The position numbers and the translations under genes are program-made. Under the pieces are notes generated by a model, which saw only the letters and a program-made list of their open reading frames with translations, did not search any database and was not told the origin of the DNA. Source: Opitutaceae bacterium (lineage in GTDB: Bacteria > Verrucomicrobiota > Verrucomicrobiia > Opitutales > Opitutaceae). Taken from it: DNA of 45,308 nucleotides. The DNA is taken from assembly GCA_016794725.1 (NCBI GenBank), contig JAEUGZ010000222.1:1-45308 (forward strand), given 5' to 3'. Of this stretch, positions 6,091-45,308 are shown one piece after another (the first letter of the stretch is position 1; every line of letters starts with the position of its first letter).

Positions 6091-7194
6091 ATGCCGCTCT
6101 TTGCGGTTGGGAGCATGCCACACGCCACGGAATCGAAGGGTCCCTTCACGCCCGGACGACATCGCGCTCGAGTCGTGCGTGACCGGCTGATGCGCGCACT
6201 CGGCGTGCCCGTGTTGGGGTTGTCCATTCCCCAGGTCACCGGGGCGCTCAAGCCTCTGACCTGGCAGCAGCCGGGCTATTGGATCGGCGTGGTTTTATTC
6301 CTGCTGTTTGCATTTGTCGTCTGGCAGGGCAACCGCTGGATCCTGCTCCAGCTCCGCGATCGGTTCGACTGGCTGCAGCGTCCGCGCCAGCGCATTGCGG
6401 CGCTGCTGGTGGCCACGTTTCTCTACACCGTGCCGGCCACCCTCGTGGCGGTGATTCTCTGGTACAAGCTCGGGCCGATCGGACAAGTCAACTGGGCCGC
6501 GGTGGCGTCGTCCACGTTTCTGGTCGAAATCGCTGTGATTGGTGTGACCAACATCTACGAGACGTGGTTTCTTGTCACCGACCGGTTCGAGGACCGCCTG
6601 CGGCTGGAACGCAATGAACGGCGCCGGGTGGAGATGGAACTCAACGGCCTGAAGAGCCAGCTGGCCCCGCATTTCCTCTTCAACTGCCTCAACACCCTCA
6701 ACGTGCTCATCGCGGAAGACCCGGCGGCGGCCCGGACCTTCACCCAGAGCATGGCGAGCGTCTGCCGCTACCTCCTGGAGCAGCAGCGGCGTGAGTTGGT
6801 GCCGCTGCACGAGGAGCGGGATTTTTTCGATGCGTACGCCACCCTGGCTCGACTGCGGTTTCCCTCGGGCCTGCAGATCGATGTCATCGGTTTCGAATCG
6901 ACGGCCGGATTGCTCATTCCCCCGGCCTCGCTGCAACTGCTGCTGGAAAATGCGATCAAGCACAACGGCATCAGCGAGAAGGCGCCCCTGCGAGTCACCG
7001 TAAAGCTCGAGGGTGACACCCTGACCTTCAGCAATCCCCTGCGTTTTGTGCCCGATCCGCCTCGCTCGACTCAGGTGGGACTAAAAAACCTTCGCGAGCG
7101 TTTCCTGCTCACCGTCGGCCGCGAGTTGGTGATCGACAAGAGCGGCGGCTGCTTCCGCGTCATCCTGCCCCTCGCACGCAACTTCGTGGCCTGA
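6091..7194 (+). CDS. LytS/YehU-type membrane sensor histidine kinase
   Basis: This is a 367-residue sensor kinase of the His_kinase family typified by LytS and YehU, which normally phosphorylate LytTR-type response regulators. The N-terminal ~165 residues hold three or four membrane helices (around residues 65-85, 105-125 and 130-160). A short coiled coil then leads to the phosphoacceptor motif 'QLAPHFLFNCLNTL' with the candidate histidine near residue 193. The ATPase N-box is 'LLLENAIKHN' at about 283-292, and a late glycine box is 'GLKNLRERF'. The start at 6091 is the first ATG of the open frame; 6115 is an alternative. It is divergent from the RND efflux operon, so it may respond to envelope stress or an exported compound, but that is only inferred from position. 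No LytTR or other response-regulator gene is next to it in the window, so its partner must lie elsewhere. Confidence 0.88.
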   Translation: MPLFAVGSMPHATESKGPFTPGRHRARVVRDRLMRALGVPVLGLSIPQVTGALKPLTWQQPGYWIGVVLFLLFAFVVWQGNRWILLQLRDRFDWLQRPRQRIAALLVATFLYTVPATLVAVILWYKLGPIGQVNWAAVASSTFLVEIAVIGVTNIYETWFLVTDRFEDRLRLERNERRRVEMELNGLKSQLAPHFLFNCLNTLNVLIAEDPAAARTFTQSMASVCRYLLEQQRRELVPLHEERDFFDAYATLARLRFPSGLQIDVIGFESTAGLLIPPASLQLLLENAIKHNGISEKAPLRVTVKLEGDTLTFSNPLRFVPDPPRSTQVGLKNLRERFLLTVGRELVIDKSGGCFRVILPLARNFVA

Positions 7195-33742: not shown

Positions 33743-36700
33743 GTGAACCCCCGCCCGCCCGCCCCTCCCTTGACCGTCGAGCGTTCCACGTCCGTCGACA
33801 CGACCCATCCGTGGCTGGGGCTGGCCTCGTTCACGGAGGAGACCCGGGCGTACTTTCACGGTCGCGACGAGGAGGTGGCGGAGCTCGGGCGGCGCGTGCA
33901 GCGCAAGCTGCTGACCATCCTCTTCGGCCAGTCGGGCCTGGGCAAGACCTCGATCCTCCGGGCCGGGCTGGTGCCGCGCCTGCGGCCCGAGGGGTACTGT
34001 CCCGTGTATGTGAGGATTGACTACAGCCGGGAGTCGGCGGCCCCGTCCGAGCAGATCAAGCAGGCCATTCTCCGGACCACGAGGGCGGCGGGACACTGGA
34101 CGCAGGCGGGGGTTTCGACCGCGGGTGAGTCGCTCTGGGAATTCCTCCATCACCGGGACGACGTCTTGAAGGACGCGGACGGCCGCACCCTCGTGCCGCT
34201 GCTGATCTTCGACCAGTTCGAGGAGATTTTCACCCTTGCGCAGACGGACGATTTTGGCCGCCAGCGCGCGGCGCAGTTCATTGAGGACTTGGCGGACCTG
34301 GTCGAGAACCGGCCGCCGCGGGCCCTGGAGGCCAAGCTCGAGAAGGATGAGGCCGATCTGGAACGGTTTGATTTTACCCGGGCCGACTACCGCCTGCTGA
34401 TCGCGCTGCGAGAGGACTACCTCGCCCACCTCGAGGGGCTGAAGGCACAGATGCCGTCGGTCACGCAGAACCGCATGCGCCTGGCCCGCATGACCGGACC
34501 CCAGGCGATCACGGCGGTGACGGGCCCGGGCGGCGCCCTGGTCAGCGCGGAGGTGGCGGCGGCGATCGTTCGGTTCGTCGCCGGCGGGGCGGAGCTCGAG
34601 CGGGCCGAGGTGGAGCCTTCGCTGCTCAGCCTGATCTGCCGGGAACTGAACAGCGCGCGTCAGGTCGGGGGGCATGCGACGATCTCCGCCGATCTGCTGG
34701 CGGGATCGCGTGAAACGATTTTGACCGAGTTCTACCGTCGCGCCCTCGCGGACCAGCCGGAAGGCGTGCGCACGTTCATCGAGGACGAGCTCCTGACTGA
34801 TTCCGGCTATCGCGAGAGCATCGCCGAGGAGCGGGTGAAGAAGGCCTTTGCCGCGGCCGGCGCCTCGGCGGAGGCTCTCGCGGTGCTGGTCGACCGCCGG
34901 CTGCTGCGGGTGGAGGATCGCCTCGACCTGCGTCGGGTGGAGCTGACCCACGACGTGTTGTGCGGCGTGGTCCGTTCCAGTCGCGATGTGCGTCAGGAAC
35001 GCGAGGCCCGGGCGGCCGAGGCGCGGCGCCGGGAGGAGACGGAGGCCCAGCTCGCCGGCGCACGGGCCCAGGAGGCCGCCGCCCGGGCGGCGGCGGTGCG
35101 CGCCCGCCTCGTGGCCGCCGTCTGCACCGTGCTGGCGGTGGGGGCGCTGGGCGCGGCCGTCTGGGGGTACGTCAATTTCCGCCGGGCCCGGCAGGCTGAG
35201 GAGCGCGTCGCGATGGAGCGCGACCGCGCGCAGCTTTCGCGGGGTGAGGCGGAGAAGCTGGTTACGTTCCTTCTCGACGACCTTTACACGCAGCTTGAGC
35301 CAACCGGCCGGATTGAGATTGTCAGTGGGCTGGCGCGCCGGGCCCTCGCCTACTTCGATGCTCTGCCGCCGGAGCTGCGGAACGACCAGAGCGACCGCTA
35401 CCGGGCCATTGCACTGGGCCGGCTCGGTGCGGCGCTGTCGCTCCAGGGCAAGACCCGCGAGGCGGAAACCCCGTTGCAGGAGGCGGAGGCGCTGTTTTCG
35501 CAACTCTCGGCGTCGGGAAAGACCACGCCGGAGGTGATTGTCGGACTGGCCGCCGTGATCCGGCAGCAGAGTCGCAACGCCTACAGCCAGAATCGCCCGA
35601 TCGCGTCGGTCGAACTGGGGCGGCGCGGGCTCGCTCTGATTGACGCTCCTGGCTCGAGTCCCGGGGCTCCGCCGGCTTTTCGGATCGAGCGCGGACGCCA
35701 GCTGATGAACCTCGGATTTGTGCTCATGCGGGATCGTAATCTCTCCGAGGCGCTGGAGAAGCTGGAGCGGGCGCGGGAGGCTTTTCAGGCCTTGATGGAA
35801 ATCGATGAATCGCGGCAACGCGCCCGCGTGCAGTACGGCGAAACGGTCGCCTGGCTGGTCGAGACCCTGCGCAGCCTGGGGCGCGCCGGAGAATCGACCC
35901 GGTACCTGACCGAGGCGATCCCGATCGCCGATCAGGCGGTCAAGGCCGAGGCGGGAAATCTCGGGGCCCTCCGCTCGCGCGCCCTGCTCAGCAGCCGGGT
36001 GGGGCTCATGGCGATGGATCAGAATGATTTTGTCGGCGCGGAAAAGAGCGCCCGGGAAACCGCGGCGGACTGGGTCGAATACCTCCGGTTCGATCCGTCC
36101 AATGACGCCGCCCGCAACAACCGCCGGGTCGCGTTGAGCCTGGTGGCCAGCGCGATGGCGAGCCAGGGGCGGCTCCAGGAGGCGATCCGCCAGTCGCGCG
36201 AAAACGTCCGGGATGCGATTGCCGAGGGCGGTTCTCCCAGCACGCTCCGCGGCACCGCGTTTGAGACCGGTGTGACGGAGAATCTCGACGCGGAGCTCAA
36301 TGCGGGGGGAGACATCGAGGCGGCCCTGGCGCCCGGCCGCCGGTTGCGCGCGCTCGCCAGTGCGCAGGTGGATCCGGAGAGCTACTTCCGCCTCGTGCTG
36401 CCGGCTTGGGATGACAGCGTGAAATCCGAGTACCTGCTGGGTGCGGGTCGGGTGGCCGAGGCCCTGGCGCTGGCCGCCTCCGTTCGGGAAAGACTGACCG
36501 CGCTGAAGCCCGTTTCCGGGTCGGAGATGCAGGCGCAGACTTGGTTGATGGACACCTGCAACCGGGTCAAGGTATCCAGTTTGCTCGTCCTTCGTCGCTG
36601 GGCCGAGGCGGTGACCCCGGCCCGCGAGCTCGTGCGGGGTCGGCCCCATCCCGATGACAAGTCCAAACGCGCCCTGGACGACCTCGCCAGCGATCGCGCC

Positions 36701-37003
36701 CTGGCCGGGGTGGCCCTGGCCCGCGGAGGCTTTGCCGACGATGCGCGGGCCCTGTTCGAGCTGGCCAAGGAACCGATTGAAACGCAACGGGGCGCCGGGG
36801 CGAGTGATCCGTTCAGCCGGTACGCTTATGCGTTGTTGAAGTTTGGTCAGGGACTGATTGAGCCGGGTCGACCGGAGCAGCAGCGCCTTTTCAACGCTGT
36901 CCTCGCGGAGATCACCGCGATGCCGGCCGAGCCCCAGCGCCTTCGTTCCGTGCGGGAACTCCGCAAGGCCGTGGAGGCGGAGATCGCGCGGTTGACCGGG
37001 TAG
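33743..37003 (+). CDS. nSTAND-type NTPase with central membrane helix and TPR-like C-terminus
   Basis: This 1,086-residue protein begins at a GTG; no ATG in a sensible place exists and no clear ribosome-binding site is visible, so it may be coupled to the SIR2-TIR gene. After ~20 residues comes an nSTAND1-type NTPase domain: 'PWLGLASFTEETRAYFHGRD', Walker A 'GQSGLGKTS' near residue 61-69, Walker B 'LLIFDQFEEIF' near 153-163, and 'ALREDYLAHLEGL' further on. A charged Arg/Glu/Ala coiled coil (about 415-452) leads to a single transmembrane helix near 455-477. The remaining ~600 residues are helical repeats of TPR type ('EAETPLQEAEALFSQL', 'LSEALEKLERAREAFQAL'). STAND proteins are sensors that oligomerise on recognising a trigger. 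There is no effector domain at the N-terminus, so the neighbouring SIR2-TIR protein may be the effector in trans. Confidence 0.87.
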   Translation: MNPRPPAPPLTVERSTSVDTTHPWLGLASFTEETRAYFHGRDEEVAELGRRVQRKLLTILFGQSGLGKTSILRAGLVPRLRPEGYCPVYVRIDYSRESAAPSEQIKQAILRTTRAAGHWTQAGVSTAGESLWEFLHHRDDVLKDADGRTLVPLLIFDQFEEIFTLAQTDDFGRQRAAQFIEDLADLVENRPPRALEAKLEKDEADLERFDFTRADYRLLIALREDYLAHLEGLKAQMPSVTQNRMRLARMTGPQAITAVTGPGGALVSAEVAAAIVRFVAGGAELERAEVEPSLLSLICRELNSARQVGGHATISADLLAGSRETILTEFYRRALADQPEGVRTFIEDELLTDSGYRESIAEERVKKAFAAAGASAEALAVLVDRRLLRVEDRLDLRRVELTHDVLCGVVRSSRDVRQEREARAAEARRREETEAQLAGARAQEAAARAAAVRARLVAAVCTVLAVGALGAAVWGYVNFRRARQAEERVAMERDRAQLSRGEAEKLVTFLLDDLYTQLEPTGRIEIVSGLARRALAYFDALPPELRNDQSDRYRAIALGRLGAALSLQGKTREAETPLQEAEALFSQLSASGKTTPEVIVGLAAVIRQQSRNAYSQNRPIASVELGRRGLALIDAPGSSPGAPPAFRIERGRQLMNLGFVLMRDRNLSEALEKLERAREAFQALMEIDESRQRARVQYGETVAWLVETLRSLGRAGESTRYLTEAIPIADQAVKAEAGNLGALRSRALLSSRVGLMAMDQNDFVGAEKSARETAADWVEYLRFDPSNDAARNNRRVALSLVASAMASQGRLQEAIRQSRENVRDAIAEGGSPSTLRGTAFETGVTENLDAELNAGGDIEAALAPGRRLRALASAQVDPESYFRLVLPAWDDSVKSEYLLGAGRVAEALALAASVRERLTALKPVSGSEMQAQTWLMDTCNRVKVSSLLVLRRWAEAVTPARELVRGRPHPDDKSKRALDDLASDRALAGVALARGGFADDARALFELAKEPIETQRGAGASDPFSRYAYALLKFGQGLIEPGRPEQQRLFNAVLAEITAMPAEPQRLRSVRELRKAVEAEIARLTG

Positions 37004-40028: not shown

Positions 40029-41177
40029 TCAGAGCCTCCGGAGCGCGTCGGCGACGCGGAGGCGCATCGCTTGCAGCGCGGGTAACAGGCCGGTCACTAC
40101 CCCCAGCACCAGGCAGAGTCCGACGCCGATCAGCAGGTCGGTGGTGCGGAAGTTGAAGAGCGGCAGCAGACCCCCGGTCGGATCGCCCTTGAGGGTGAGC
40201 AGCCACGCGAAGAGCAACCCAAGTCCGCCACCGAGGCCGGCGAGGGTGCAGGATTCGGCCAGGACGAGTCCGAGCACCTGACCCGGCGTGAAGCCGATGG
40301 CCTTGAGCACGCCGAGTTCGCCGATGCGCTCGCGCACCGCCTGCGACATGGTGCTTCCGGTGACGAGGAGGATCGTGAAGAAGACGGCGCCCAGGATGCC
40401 CGCCACGATGAGTGTGATGTTGCCGATCTGCCGCGCCCAGGCTTGGGCGAAGGCTCCCTCGGGTTCGGTTTTGGTTTCGGCGGGGGAATTTTCGAACTCC
40501 TGGTCGACCAGCCGGGCAATTTCGGCGGCGCGGGAAGGGTCCTTCACGCGGATCGTGTACCAGCCAACCAGGCCGCGTCCACGACCCGGCTCCCGCATTT
40601 CGTCGAAGTAGTCGTAACGGAAGAACAGCGGCGTGGTATCGGTCCCTTTGTCGCGTCCCTGAAAAATCCCCACAATGTCAAATTCCCACGTCCGTTGTCC
40701 CCAGATCGGAGTCCGGATCGGGACCCGGTCGCCGATCTTCCACTTGAAGCGCTCCGCGGTGTTGCGGCCCACGATCGCGCCGGTGCGGGTGGCGAGCCAG
40801 GCGGCGCGTTCGGCGGGCGACAGGATGATCTCCGGATGCATGGTCAGGAACGGCTCGGGTTCCACCGGGTTCTGCATGAAGAAGTTCTTTGGATCCTGAT
40901 ACACCCCGCCGAACCACGTCTGGTGCACGACCAGGTCCACGCCCGGAATGCGTTCCATGCGCGCCTTGTAGCTCTCGGGCAGCAGCTGGATGATGGAGAC
41001 CTTGTGCCGCACCACGAGCCGGTCGACGCCGGCCAGTTCCACCCCGCCGACCAGGGCCTGACGGATCGAGCAGAGCAGGCCGAAGAGCACGAAGGCGACC
41101 AGGATCGACAGCAGTGTCAGCGCGGTGCGCAGCTTCTTGCGCTTGAGATTTCCCCAGACGAGGTGGGCGTACTTCAT
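40029..41177 (-). CDS. ABC transporter permease, FtsX/MacB type (first permease)
   Basis: This 382-residue MacB/FtsX-type permease starts [20 protein letters not shown], with a basic amphipathic segment before TM1 (about residues 20-40). A ~190-residue periplasmic domain follows, with 'GRNTAERFKWKIGDRVPI' resembling the MacB periplasmic core, then three C-terminal helices and the coupling motif 'RERIGELGVLKAIGFTPGQV'. Its start overlaps the ATPase stop by ATGA, so it is translationally coupled to the ATPase. It differs clearly from the second permease, so the transporter is probably a heterodimer, unlike MacB itself, which is a homodimer with fused ATPase. Confidence 0.93.
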   Translation of the reverse strand: MKYAHLVWGNLKRKKLRTALTLLSILVAFVLFGLLCSIRQALVGGVELAGVDRLVVRHKVSIIQLLPESYKARMERIPGVDLVVHQTWFGGVYQDPKNFFMQNPVEPEPFLTMHPEIILSPAERAAWLATRTGAIVGRNTAERFKWKIGDRVPIRTPIWGQRTWEFDIVGIFQGRDKGTDTTPLFFRYDYFDEMREPGRGRGLVGWYTIRVKDPSRAAEIARLVDQEFENSPAETKTEPEGAFAQAWARQIGNITLIVAGILGAVFFTILLVTGSTMSQAVRERIGELGVLKAIGFTPGQVLGLVLAESCTLAGLGGGLGLLFAWLLTLKGDPTGGLLPLFNFRTTDLLIGVGLCLVLGVVTGLLPALQAMRLRVADALRRL

Positions 41178-41890
41178 GACACCGGCTCGTTGGACAGGCG
41201 GCCCTTGTTGAGGTAGACCGTGCGGCTGGCGCGAGCCGAGGCATGCGGGTCGTGGGTGACCATGATGATGGTCTTGCCATGTTCCCGGTTCAGCGCCTGG
41301 AGCAGATTGAGGATTTCGTCACCGGCCTTCCGGTCGAGGTCGCCTGTGGGTTCGTCGCAGAGCAGGAGCGTCGGGTCGGTGACGATGCCACGGGCGATGC
41401 CCACGCGCTGCTGTTCTCCGCCCGAAAGCGTGCGTGGATAGTGCTTCGCGCGATGGGAGAGTCCCACCATGGCCAGGGCCGTGGCGACGTGTTTCTGCCG
41501 TTCCGCCTTGCCCAGGTGCGTGAGCAGCAGCGGCAGCTCCACGTTGCGCTCGGCGGTCAGGACCGGCATGAGGTTGTAAAGCTGGAAGACGAAACCGATG
41601 TGCCTCGCCCGCCAGTCGGCCAACCGCCGGTCGGAGAGGGTGTCGATGCGTTCGCCCGCGACCGTGACCGTGCCCTGGGTGGGACGGTCGAGTCCGCCGA
41701 TCAGATTCAGCAGCGTGCTCTTGCCCGAACCGGAAGGGCCCATCAGGGCGAGAAATTCGCCCTGTGGCACCACCAGGTCGAGACGGGCGAGCACGTGCAC
41801 GTCCTCAGACGCCCGGCGAAACGTCTTTTCCACCCCGTCTATGCGAACCAATCCGGCGTCGCCGGGCTTGCCGTCGTTCATCGTGCTCAT
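41174..41890 (-). CDS. ABC transporter ATP-binding protein, LolD/MacB type
   Basis: This 238-residue cytoplasmic ATPase powers the two adjacent FtsX-type permeases. All motifs are present: Walker A 'GPSGSGKST' (about residues 51-59), Q-loop '[13 protein letters not shown]', ABC signature 'LSGGEQQR', Walker B '[12 protein letters not shown]' and the switch histidine in 'IIMVTHD'. The '[19 protein letters not shown]' segment is typical of the LolD/MacB/FtsE branch. It overlaps both the adaptor stop and the first permease start by ATGA. The second methionine at residue 4 is an alternative start. Confidence 0.95.
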
Positions 41891-43110
41891 GGCTTAGTTT
41901 TGGATACGACCGAACCGTCCACCAGATCGGCGGGCGCGTCGACCGCCACCGATTCCCCGGCGCCGAGGCCGGCGCCGATCACCACCTCATTCTCCCGGGT
42001 GTCGGATACCGTGACGGCGCGCCGTTCGGCGCGTCCCTGGTGAATGACAAAGACCACGTCGCGTCCATCGACCCGGCGCACCGCCCGCCGCGACACGGAC
42101 ACCCCGCGCACCGCGTTGCCGGACGATGCACCAACGACCTCGCGAAAGGCCACCTTCACACCCATCTGCGGCAGGATGCGGGGGTCCAGCTGATCAAACC
42201 CCACCCGGACCCGCACGGTCGATTTCTGCCGGTCGGCGGTGGGAATGATGGCAATGACCTTGCAGGGGAGCTTCCAGTCACTGTAGGCGTCGAGCGTGGC
42301 TTCCACGGGCTGGCCGGGTTTGACCCGGTTGATGTAGCTTTCGTTGACGTCGATTTCGATCTCGAGCGACTCCATGTCGACGATCGTGCAGATGCCGGTG
42401 CGCGTAAAGCCTCCGGAAGACATGGGGGAGATCATCTCTCCGGGCTGGGCGTTCTTGGAGGTCACGACCCCCGCGAAAGGCGCCAGAATGACGGTGTCGT
42501 CCAGCTGTTGCTGCCAGATGGCGACATTGCGCTCAGCCACCAGCTGCTCGCTCTGTTGCTGGGCGAGGCGCGCCTTCCACGCCAGCAGCGCAGCTTCGGC
42601 CCGGTCGAAGTCGGATTGCGGGGAAACCTTGGCGGAAAGGAGATTGGCTTGCCGCTGCAAGTCGAGCTCGGCCTCGCGGATGCGGACCCGGCTTTCCTCC
42701 TGCGCGGCGGCGGCCGATTCGACCTGAGCCCGGGCCAACAGGAGGTTGGCGCGGACATTGGTGTCGTCGAGGCGCGCGATGACCTGGCCGGCGGCAATGA
42801 CCTGACCTTCCTCAATCAGGACCTCGGTCACCCGCCCCGTAATCTTGGAGGAGAGGGTGGCTTCGCGCCGCGCGGTGACATAGCCGGATGCATTGAGGAT
42901 GGTGCGATCACCCGAACCCAGGGTCACCTCTCGGGCCACCTCGGTGGCCACGGTGAGGGTCGGGGGACGCCGCAGCCACCACCACACCGCCGCGACCACC
43001 ACCAGGACCAGTAAGGCGATCAGCCCCCAGTGGCCGCGAGAGGACGGCCGGGCCGCCCTGGTGTCGCGTTCAATTCGCAGGTCATTCAGACTCGGCTGTG
43101 GCGTGCCCAT
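41887..43110 (-). CDS. Periplasmic adaptor (HlyD/MacA type) of the ABC exporter
   Basis: This 407-residue protein is a membrane fusion protein of MacA type. It has a short cytoplasmic start, one membrane anchor (about residues 28-47, '[19 protein letters not shown]'), a first lipoyl half ('[19 protein letters not shown]'), a coiled-coil hairpin rich in Gln, Ala and Glu (about 110-190), a second lipoyl half ('[19 protein letters not shown]'), and a C-terminal beta-barrel with '[17 protein letters not shown]'. It links the ABC transporter to an outer-membrane channel that is not encoded nearby. It is the first gene of the operon; upstream lie two strong palindromes that are good operator candidates. 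Confidence 0.93.
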
Positions 43111-43184
43111 GTCGCCCCGAAGGCTGCCACGGCCAGGAGCAACCGGTCAATCGTGATGCGATGACCCTCCCCCCCCCGAAAACC

Positions 43185-43207
43185 AGTGTCATCCAGCGGA
43201 TGACACT
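43185..43207. promoter_or_regulatory. Palindrome 1 (operator candidate)
   Basis: AGTGTCATCC-AGC-GGATGACACT is a perfect 10-3-10 inverted repeat, 75-97 bases before the adaptor start. It nearly matches a second palindrome 54 bases farther on. Confidence 0.6.
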
Positions 43208-43238
43208 TCACAGCACCGTACCCGCTGGGTCGGACAGC

Positions 43239-43263
43239 AAGTGTCATCCGGCGGATGACACTT
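43239..43263. promoter_or_regulatory. Palindrome 2 (operator candidate)
   Basis: AAGTGTCATCC-GGC-GGATGACACTT is a perfect 11-3-11 inverted repeat. Centre-to-centre distance from palindrome 1 is 55 bases, about five helical turns, so the two would face the same side of the DNA. Size and symmetry suit a dimeric repressor or activator; a member of a dispersed repeat family is the alternative. Confidence 0.6.
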
Positions 43264-43435
43264 GGGAGGGAGCTGGCGGGGGGCGTGGTGTACGCGGGTT
43301 GCCGCGGGGTGGCTCTCGCCGGGCGAGGTTTGGAGGGGACATGGGATATCGGCTGCAGTCCCTCCGGGGCGGGTCTGGCGTCGGCGGCCGGACCGGGGCG
43401 GTGCCGTCGGGTCCGTTGCATTCTGCTGGCCTGGG

Positions 43436-45308
43436 TCAGGCTCGCTGGAGCTGGCCGCGCTGGCAGGACTTCAGGCACGTATCGATGCGGCAGATATGAC
43501 CGACCAGCCACTGGGTGAGAAACTGGTGCAGTTCGCGGACCTGGGCGTTGGTTTGTCCCGTGGAATCATACTCGTGGCGCCAGGCGGTGTACTTGTCGAT
43601 CAGGGCGGCGTGCGCCTTGCAGTTCCGTTTGGCGGCGGAGCAGCCGGTGGTTTCCATGATCCGCTCCTCCTCGCGGAAGTGGTCGACGGTGTAGGCGGCG
43701 AGGGAGTCGAGCAGCGGGGCGACCTGGGCGGCGGGCCACTGGTTGAGCTGGGCGCGTTCGATGTCGTTGATGATCTCGATGAGGCCCTGATGTTGGCGAT
43801 CGACGGTTTCGTTGCCGGTCGACATCGTCTCGGGGTCGTAGCGCAGGCCCGCGGGTGCGACCTCCCCGGCCTGAAAGTCCTCGGTGGAGGACACAGGGTC
43901 GTTCGGTTCGAACGACCCTGCGGATGTCCCTGCGGCCGGTGTTTCGCCGCGGGAAGGGTTCCGGGCGTGGCCGGAAACCAGGCCGCGGATGCCCCGGATG
44001 ACCATGCGCTGTGACGTTTCGCTCTCCCGCAGCACGGCGACGGCTTCGGAGAGCTGCTCGCTGGCGGCCTCGTTGCGATGTGCGATCTCCTGGGTTTTCG
44101 CCAAGGTATCGAGGGAACGCTGGGCGACCTCGGTTTCGGATTGGGCGGCGGCGACGAGGTCGGTGACGCGGGCTCGCGTGTGTTGGGCGTTGGTCGACAT
44201 GCCCTGCAAGGCGGCGGCGACTTCCTTGCCCACGCTCGAGCCCTGGCGGGAGCGGGCCACGGCGTCGTCGATGCGACCGCGGGTGTTGCGGGCCGCCTCG
44301 GCACTGCGTTGGGCGAGGGCCCGCACCTCATCGGCCACCACGGCAAACCCCGCGCCGGCGGCGCCGGCCCGGGCTGCCTCGATGGCGGCGTTCAGGGCGA
44401 GCAGATTGGTTTGAAAGGCGATCTCGTCGATCACGCCGATGATCCGTGCGATTTCCTCGCCGGACTTCTGGATGCCGGCGAGGGACGATTCAAGCCGGTG
44501 CATGCTGGTGGCGGAGGATTCGGCGGCCTGCTGGGTGGCGTCGGCAAGACGTCGTGACTCCTCGACCAGCGACAAACGCTCACCTTGTTTTGCCACCAGA
44601 TTGTTTAATGCCTCGCTGACTTCATCGTGCGCCTGTATCTGTGCACCCTGTCCGTGGGCCAGCGTCTGGGCGGACGCCATCACCCGATCGGTGGCGGACC
44701 CGGCCTGGGCTGCACCGCCGGCGAGTTCCTCGGAGAATGACTCGAGCCGGCGACCGATCCAGCGGCCGAGCAGCAGCGTGAACAGACCGGCGACGAGGAC
44801 CGTGGCTCCACCCAGACCGGCGCTGGTGAGAACAAAGCCGAAAATGCCTTGCGTGAGGGTGGTTTTGACCTGGCCCACCTCGTCTTCGTAAGCCGCGGCG
44901 CCGACCACCCAGTCCCAGGGAGCATAGTAAGCGTAGCGAATCAGCCGGGAGCGAGGGGCCGGGTCGCCCGATTCCTGCCACGCGTGGCGCAGATGGGCGA
45001 AGGCGCCCGGTGAAAGCGAGGGGCCGGCCTTGACCAGTTCCCGCACGGGGCTGACGCCGTCGGCTCCCTGTTCCTGCAGCATGACTTTGCCGTCGAGGGC
45101 GCCGCCCTTGGAAATGACGTAGCGCCCGGCGTCGGTCCCCCGGGTATTGAGGACAAAGAGATGGCCGCTTTCGCCGATTTTGGTTTTTGCAAACGCCGCC
45201 TTCACATTCTCCAGCGCGGTGCTTTCCGGGATGCCGAAATATGTCATGCCGGCGACCCGCCCGCCCGCATCCTGCACCGGTTGATATGAGGCGAAATACC
45301 ACTGGTTG
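43436..45308 (-). CDS. Methyl-accepting chemotaxis protein with C-terminal hemerythrin domain (partial, runs off right edge)
   Basis: About 623 residues are present and the frame is open to the window end (first visible residues [16 protein letters not shown]), so the N-terminal membrane helix and part of the sensor are missing. The visible N-terminus is the end of a periplasmic Cache-type domain ('[17 protein letters not shown]' is typical just before the membrane). A transmembrane helix follows ('[18 protein letters not shown]'), then a coiled-coil signalling domain whose tip '[18 protein letters not shown]' binds CheA and CheW. After a Pro/Ser-rich linker comes a bacteriohemerythrin domain (last ~135 residues) with all expected di-iron ligands: His in 'DRQHQG', His and Glu in 'DHFREEER', His in 'CKAHAAL' and His and Asp in '[10 protein letters not shown]'. 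The protein could thus combine a ligand sensor with oxygen or redox sensing. The internal GTG at 45277 should not be taken as the start. Confidence 0.93.

Follow-up and report, generated by a model that had tools for sequence, protein, structure and literature searches.

Two perfect palindromes lie upstream of an ABC exporter operon in an Opitutaceae genome, and the question raised by this locus is whether they serve that operon or belong to something wider. The window, i.e., the whole stretch of 45,308 nucleotides analysed here, is contig C157 of the source genome G000 (6.78 Mb, 641 contigs). Its intergenic region at positions 43111..43435 houses palindrome 1, GTGTCATCC-AGC-GGATGACAC, at 43186..43206 and palindrome 2, GTGTCATCC-GGC-GGATGACAC, at 43241..43261 (region and palindromes carry no strand). 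As the preliminary description had reported, the two are perfect in both arms and stand 55 bp apart, centre to centre, and they differ in one centre base only; we place them 75-151 bases ahead of the start codon of a periplasmic adaptor (HlyD_3, HlyD_D23; 41887..43110, minus strand), the first gene of the exporter operon, whose regulation by the pair is putative. The upstream neighbour is a chemotaxis receptor that combines Cache, MCP signal and hemerythrin domains (43436..45307, minus strand), open at the window end. With as many as 3 mismatches allowed, shuffled windows averaged 0.02 matches. A scan for RNA families across 41000-45308 returned two matches with E values of about 0.8, both far under the gathering score, and a consensus scan of 43000-43600 found neither a sigma-70-like promoter nor an intrinsic terminator (a stem followed by a T-run).

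One reading of the pair is that of an operator, at which a dedicated regulator would bind cooperatively and control the adaptor and ABC genes. The position of the pair before the adaptor start, the perfection and pairing of the palindromes and a spacing compatible with helical phase all favour it, whereas the spacer lacks a promoter-like match and the genome as a whole tells a different story. With up to 2 mismatches, G000 carries 61 palindromes (reversed-pattern control, 0), each member of the window pair being one of the 61, with the common core GTGTCATC-N5-GATGACAC. They are grouped in 27 clusters of 1-6 copies. By the gene calls of a simple and crude codon-usage script, 46 of the 61 sites lie entirely between genes, another 5 run across a gene end and 10 fall inside called genes, with intergenic bases making up just 13.8% in this count; on the same calls, 19 of the 27 clusters lie between same-strand genes (some inside a called gene), 4 between convergent and 4 between divergent ones. 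In the share that is convergent, clusters and local intergenic gaps do not differ (4/27 versus 27/105, p 0.31), and many palindromes are found shortly 3' of stop codons. Ten neighbour proteins that we scanned have unrelated functions: the adaptor, two chemotaxis receptors, a Crp-like regulator, a histidine kinase, an EF-hand protein, a peptidase, an rRNA methylase, an amylomaltase and a DUF protein. Given 61 sites in 27 clusters, unrelated neighbours, convergent placements and copies inside genes, the pair is not to be taken for an exporter operator, a reading that we now regard as decidedly unlikely. Nor does the motif keep to the promoters of genes linked in function. The same description held that many copies at random intergenic places, including between convergent genes, would mean a repeat family instead of an operator, and this is in part what we found: the copies are many, a few clusters are convergent, some copies are intragenic and the neighbours are unrelated. 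Yet the choice between repeat family and operator is a false one, because the repeats here behave like protein sites.

This behaviour is apparent from a comparison with G123, a second genome of the same genus, which holds the palindrome at 50-52 places with at most 1 mismatch. We aligned 16 orthologous stretches and paired their sites, allowing no more than 3 mismatches over the 16 arm bases. Across 15 orthologous pairs with diverged flanks (171/420 positions identical), 237 of 240 arm bases are the same, as are 49 of 75 among the five centre bases; across 12 pairs with conserved flanks (287/336), arm identity is 189/192. Since the G123 stretches were fetched for the sites that they hold, these figures describe conserved clusters and not loss rates; within the stretches, 12 G000 sites have no G123 partner and one G123 site has none in G000. 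The copy number per array is unequal between the two genomes. Two arrays contain longer tandem repeats: in G000, a 205-bp repeat with three palindromes is present twice in tandem (L079, 6070-6416), and in G123, a 420-bp repeat occurs in three tandem copies (L140, 5965, 6385 and 6805).

Perfect inverted repeats, many of them soon after stop codons, could also be read at the level of RNA, as transcription terminators or mRNA-stabilising stems. At least 6 additional outer pairs, perfectly complementary and of variable sequence, extend the palindrome outward in 9 of 56 G123 sites and 4 of 12 sites in another genome, G052, which is above cross-site controls. Against such a hairpin, pairing at centre positions 9/13 and 10/12 is no higher than in shuffles of the G000 and G123 sites, the flanks show at most a weak excess over shuffles, and one-sided arm changes in these genomes are uncompensated; moreover, the window spacer has no terminator match and copies also occur between divergent genes. 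As centre and flank pairing is at most weakly above shuffles, the conservation is in general not that of a hairpin. We reject the hairpin or terminator as a general explanation, very improbable as it now appears, with a minority of long stems left over. The base next to the arm (C9 or G13) is retained in 60 of the 61 G000 sites, on one side or on both, as would be expected if a dimer read two half-sites.

The distances between neighbouring sites are quantised. In G000, they fall at 37-38, 44-48, 55-58, 61, 66, 73-76 and 84 bp, and in other Opitutaceae at 44-47, 54-58, 65-67, 73, 87-91, 99-104 and 110-112 bp, with a few longer gaps. When positions were jittered by up to 6 bp, none of 5000 trials attained the periodicity observed, either for G000 or for the other genera; with distinct values only, 392/5000 and 36/5000 trials did so, respectively. 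The period that fits best is 11.15 bp for the other genera and 9.9 bp for G000. The earlier statement that the window pair is in phase thus holds for the set of neighbouring copies, is less secure for G000 alone and fits the single pair only approximately, because 55 bp corresponds to 5.0 helical turns if a turn takes 11 bp and to 5.24 if it takes 10.5. Of the cooperatively binding dimeric regulator proposed at the same time, one half survives: arm conservation, quantised spacing, the lack of general hairpin selection and the candidate helix-turn-helix (HTH) protein described below make the sites resemble phased dimer targets, but not an operator specific to the exporter.

When palindrome-adjacent proteins were clustered across genera, a single DNA-binding candidate proved to be shared, namely an HTH protein some 120 amino acids long. 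Its gene in G000 (120 aa) lies at G000:C557:23720-24079, i.e., 6221-6580 of locus L078, where it stands between two pairs of palindromes, one at L078 positions 6095 and 6150, the other at 6659 and 6703. In G123, the gene is flanked in the same two-plus-two manner; it also sits between palindromes in G064 and G090, and adjoins them in G020. Searches with Pfam, NCBIfam and PHROGs gave weak HTH-type matches only and no recombinase or transposase signature in the family. The YdaS_toxin model matched 23 of 27 members at E <=1, weakly (best, 1.4e-4), and in the five HTH proteins tested against curated family models all scores stayed under the cut-off. A PDB profile search yielded no convincing relative, and PADLOC had no family for three members. 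An R-Q pair within the presumed recognition helix is invariant across the alignment. No relatives were found in IMG/VR (pattern search and tblastn) or in phage or plasmid collections, and on these grounds a viral or plasmid origin of the gene was rejected.

How closely gene and palindromes belong together can be judged from 59 HTH loci, which are best matches only, fewer than all HTH genes, and partly non-independent owing to near-duplicates (G060/G142, G185/G196 and G000/G123); three loci of G093 entered the count, and the repeated loci L353, L354, L355 and L358 had been dropped. Within 420 bp, TGT..ACA palindromes stand on both sides of the gene at 30 loci, on one side at 10 and at none in 19. 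When these 19 were searched de novo, 7 proved to have repeated, differently spelled palindromes on both sides, and 1 more had them on a single side. The alternative spellings at HTH loci comprise TTTCACG, TTTGCCG, TGTTCG, AGTAACC, GTCAAC and TGGTAGT, most with a TA(A/T)TA centre. By our reading, then, 37 of 59 loci are framed on both sides and 48 have at least one side, leaving 22 not framed on both; the chance expectation, at the highest density seen, is about 0.02 palindromes per 1.2 kb. The surroundings of the loci differ, the largest group with shared neighbours numbering 6 of 59.

The spelling of the palindrome follows the HTH clade and a residue of the recognition helix. Where the residue after RQR(V/L/I)H is E or D, base 6 of the palindrome is C (13/13); where it is L or M, the base is T (12/12); Q and A go with either. 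In the tree, which excluded four weak loci (L371, L372, L380 and L381), this match rests on 3-4 changes, so that co-evolution would account for it but is not established by it; a test of residue against base by independent contrasts was underpowered. HTH paralogues are numerous in some genomes, with 8 matches in G093, 7 in G235 and 5 each in G027, G052 and G246; in such multi-paralogue genomes, each HTH protein presumably has its own palindrome spelling.

Gene and palindrome also co-vary across genomes. Among 100 Opitutaceae genomes, TGTCAYNTATTANRTGACA occurs in 50, reaching 73 copies in G027 (control, 0), and the HTH gene was found in 130 of 250 genomes of the family. A hand-compiled table drawn from the palindrome and HTH listings of the 100 genomes has both in 38, the palindrome only in 12, the HTH gene only in 9 and neither in 41 (p 8e-9); a number of exceptions are to be expected, since dialects escape the palindrome pattern, to the point that G000 and G052 themselves are tallied as 'HTH only'. 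In the genus of G000, represented by ten genomes, the two with the HTH gene, G000 and G123, both have palindromes, and the other eight have neither (Fisher p 0.022). Beyond the family, both thin out: 18 of 20 HTH matches in a phylum sample of 387 genomes are in Opitutaceae and the 2 elsewhere in the class are weak, and GTGTCAT-N7-ATGACAC was met outside Opitutaceae in one further genome of a 240-genome phylum sample. Spellings are genome-specific, e.g., CATC/GATG, CACG/CGTG, CACC/GGTG and CACT/AGTG. In G052, the genome-wide spelling was predicted beforehand from a palindrome in its rsmE gene and the prediction held, with all 12 of 12 TGTCA-N9-TGACA matches spelled TGTCAAC...GTTGACA.

Palindromes inside coding sequences bring up the main rival to a protein-target reading, namely that the system has the same anatomy, an HTH gene framed by palindromes, but is largely parasitic and spreads copies of itself with no gain to the host. 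The comparison here is with Rickettsia palindromic elements (RPEs), which are likewise found in frame within coding sequences; the G000 sites, unlike RPEs, are mainly intergenic, symmetrical, untagged and associated with an HTH gene. In relatives of G000, palindromes lie in frame in rsmE, uvrA and genes for a methyltransferase, an epimerase and a heptose kinase. The linker of rsmE carries one in G021, G043, G017, G052, G192 and G050, and comparison of RsmE, the epimerase and the heptose kinase with solved structures is compatible with insertion or substitution. These in-frame copies, the unequal copy numbers per array in G000 and G123, the tandem-duplicated arrays and the varied surroundings of the HTH loci would all suit a parasite. 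Against it, the arms are unchanged at old positions despite diverged flanks, the HTH family has no recombinase or transposase signature in the three profile collections, and no clean empty-site insertion was seen at the loci compared, with rsmE linkers differing little in length with and without the palindrome (23 of 30 loci entered this alignment, 3 of them in the wrong reading frame). On the sequence evidence, arm constraint at old positions speaks against pure parasitism, and copy turnover and in-gene copies for some mobility; we consider a mainly parasitic element unlikely. Among the genes with in-frame copies, uvrA-like open frames of about 1900-2030 codons were seen at L111 (G237), L112 (G043) and L269 (G064), by eye a tandem of two UvrA units, and those at L111 and L112 have the palindrome in frame.

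A mobile repeat of a known kind would be a REP element mobilised by a RAYT transposase. REP/BIME sequences with their RAYTs (REPtrons), as presented in PMC3733652, are likewise short, dispersed, mostly intergenic palindromes in close groups and flank a protein gene. Matches to Y1_Tnp turned up in 22 of the 25 genomes tested, yet the TGTCA..TGACA palindrome is found at 0 of 30 Y1_Tnp loci, G017 and G047 have 10 and 38 palindromes, respectively, without a Y1_Tnp match, and no conserved tetranucleotide stands beside the arms. The flanked gene here encodes a small HTH protein and that of REPtrons a Y1 transposase; moreover, the arms are strictly kept and the spacer is free in G000 and G123, unlike in REPtrons. 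Neither the GTAG nor the CGTC tag appears in the flank columns of 61 G000 and 56 G123 sites. GTAG-tagged REPs have been reported from Opitutus terrae (PMC3733652), and these are something different from the palindromes described here. We reject RAYT mobilisation, which is extremely improbable given the Y1_Tnp loci devoid of the palindrome and the two palindrome-bearing genomes devoid of Y1_Tnp. Rickettsia palindromic elements are named in the same paper.

The explanation that we favour is that the roughly 60 sites of G000, including the window pair, are probably targets of homodimers of the 120-aa HTH protein. What the sequences show is how many sites there are, where they lie, how they are conserved and phased, and that they go with the HTH gene both physically and phylogenetically; from this we infer that the protein binds the palindromes as a homodimer and that dimers on helically phased neighbouring sites would touch and so build short nucleoprotein loops or clusters. 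The sites flanking the HTH gene itself would then mediate autorepression, and the dispersed intergenic arrays may mark the chromosome as a whole, organising or insulating it, instead of serving as promoter switches, the chromosome-wide role being a guess. A transcriptional effect on the exporter is possible, and nothing singles out the exporter operon. Several observations weigh against the HTH protein as reader of the sites: the 12 of 100 genomes with palindromes and no HTH match, the 22 of 59 HTH loci lacking palindromes on both sides, the 3-4 tree changes behind the residue/base match, and the origin of the G000/G123 pairs from site-chosen stretches with 12 partnerless G000 sites. More tentatively, Opitutaceae as sampled might host a self-maintaining protein-DNA system, in which a palindrome-framed HTH gene seeds matching sites and protein and palindrome shift together into dialects.

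Chromosomal proteins such as SlmA, Noc and MatP offer a parallel, each a dimeric protein that reads tens of palindromic sites within and between genes. The present palindromes likewise number in the tens over the chromosome, with reading by one dimeric protein putative. In contrast to sites of that class, they form phased arrays, frame the gene of the protein, vary in spelling between genomes and are neither consistently excluded from nor clustered at the terminus. The latter follows from two complete chromosomes, G064 and G020, with 22-23 sites each: by sampled GC skew, the G064 sites lie near the skew switch, where G020 has a gap. For want of a terminus or origin pattern consistent between these two chromosomes, a terminus-linked chromosome mark was set aside. 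Repressors of the Cro, KorA and YdaS-like type provide the other parallel, being small HTH proteins with palindromic sites beside their own genes. The likeness extends to probable autoregulation, but the sites here stand to either side of the gene, with tens more placed mostly regardless of promoters.

Dispersed palindromes, HTH dimers and genes flanked by their own repeats are all known kinds of thing; their combination looks like a REP-type repeat with a dedicated HTH protein in place of the transposase. Our searches of an open-access library turned up no description of these palindromes, of their association with the HTH gene or of the parallel dialects. If the self-maintaining system is real, the partner of this REP-like dispersed repeat would be a protein that reads sequence and not a transposase, and the dialects would be a natural record of a recognition helix and its site co-evolving. 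With a concrete candidate protein, some ten site spellings and dozens of matched protein/site pairs at hand, both the function of the repeat and the co-evolution of helix and site can be tested directly by cheap binding assays.

Finally, we note two features of the window itself. In the chemotaxis receptor at 43436-45307, the hemerythrin domain is located at the C-terminus, after the MCP signalling domain, with the Cache domains ahead. A long open frame at 33743-37003 on the plus strand has a P-loop-like motif near its N-terminus and resembles, by eye, a STAND-type ATPase with repeats.
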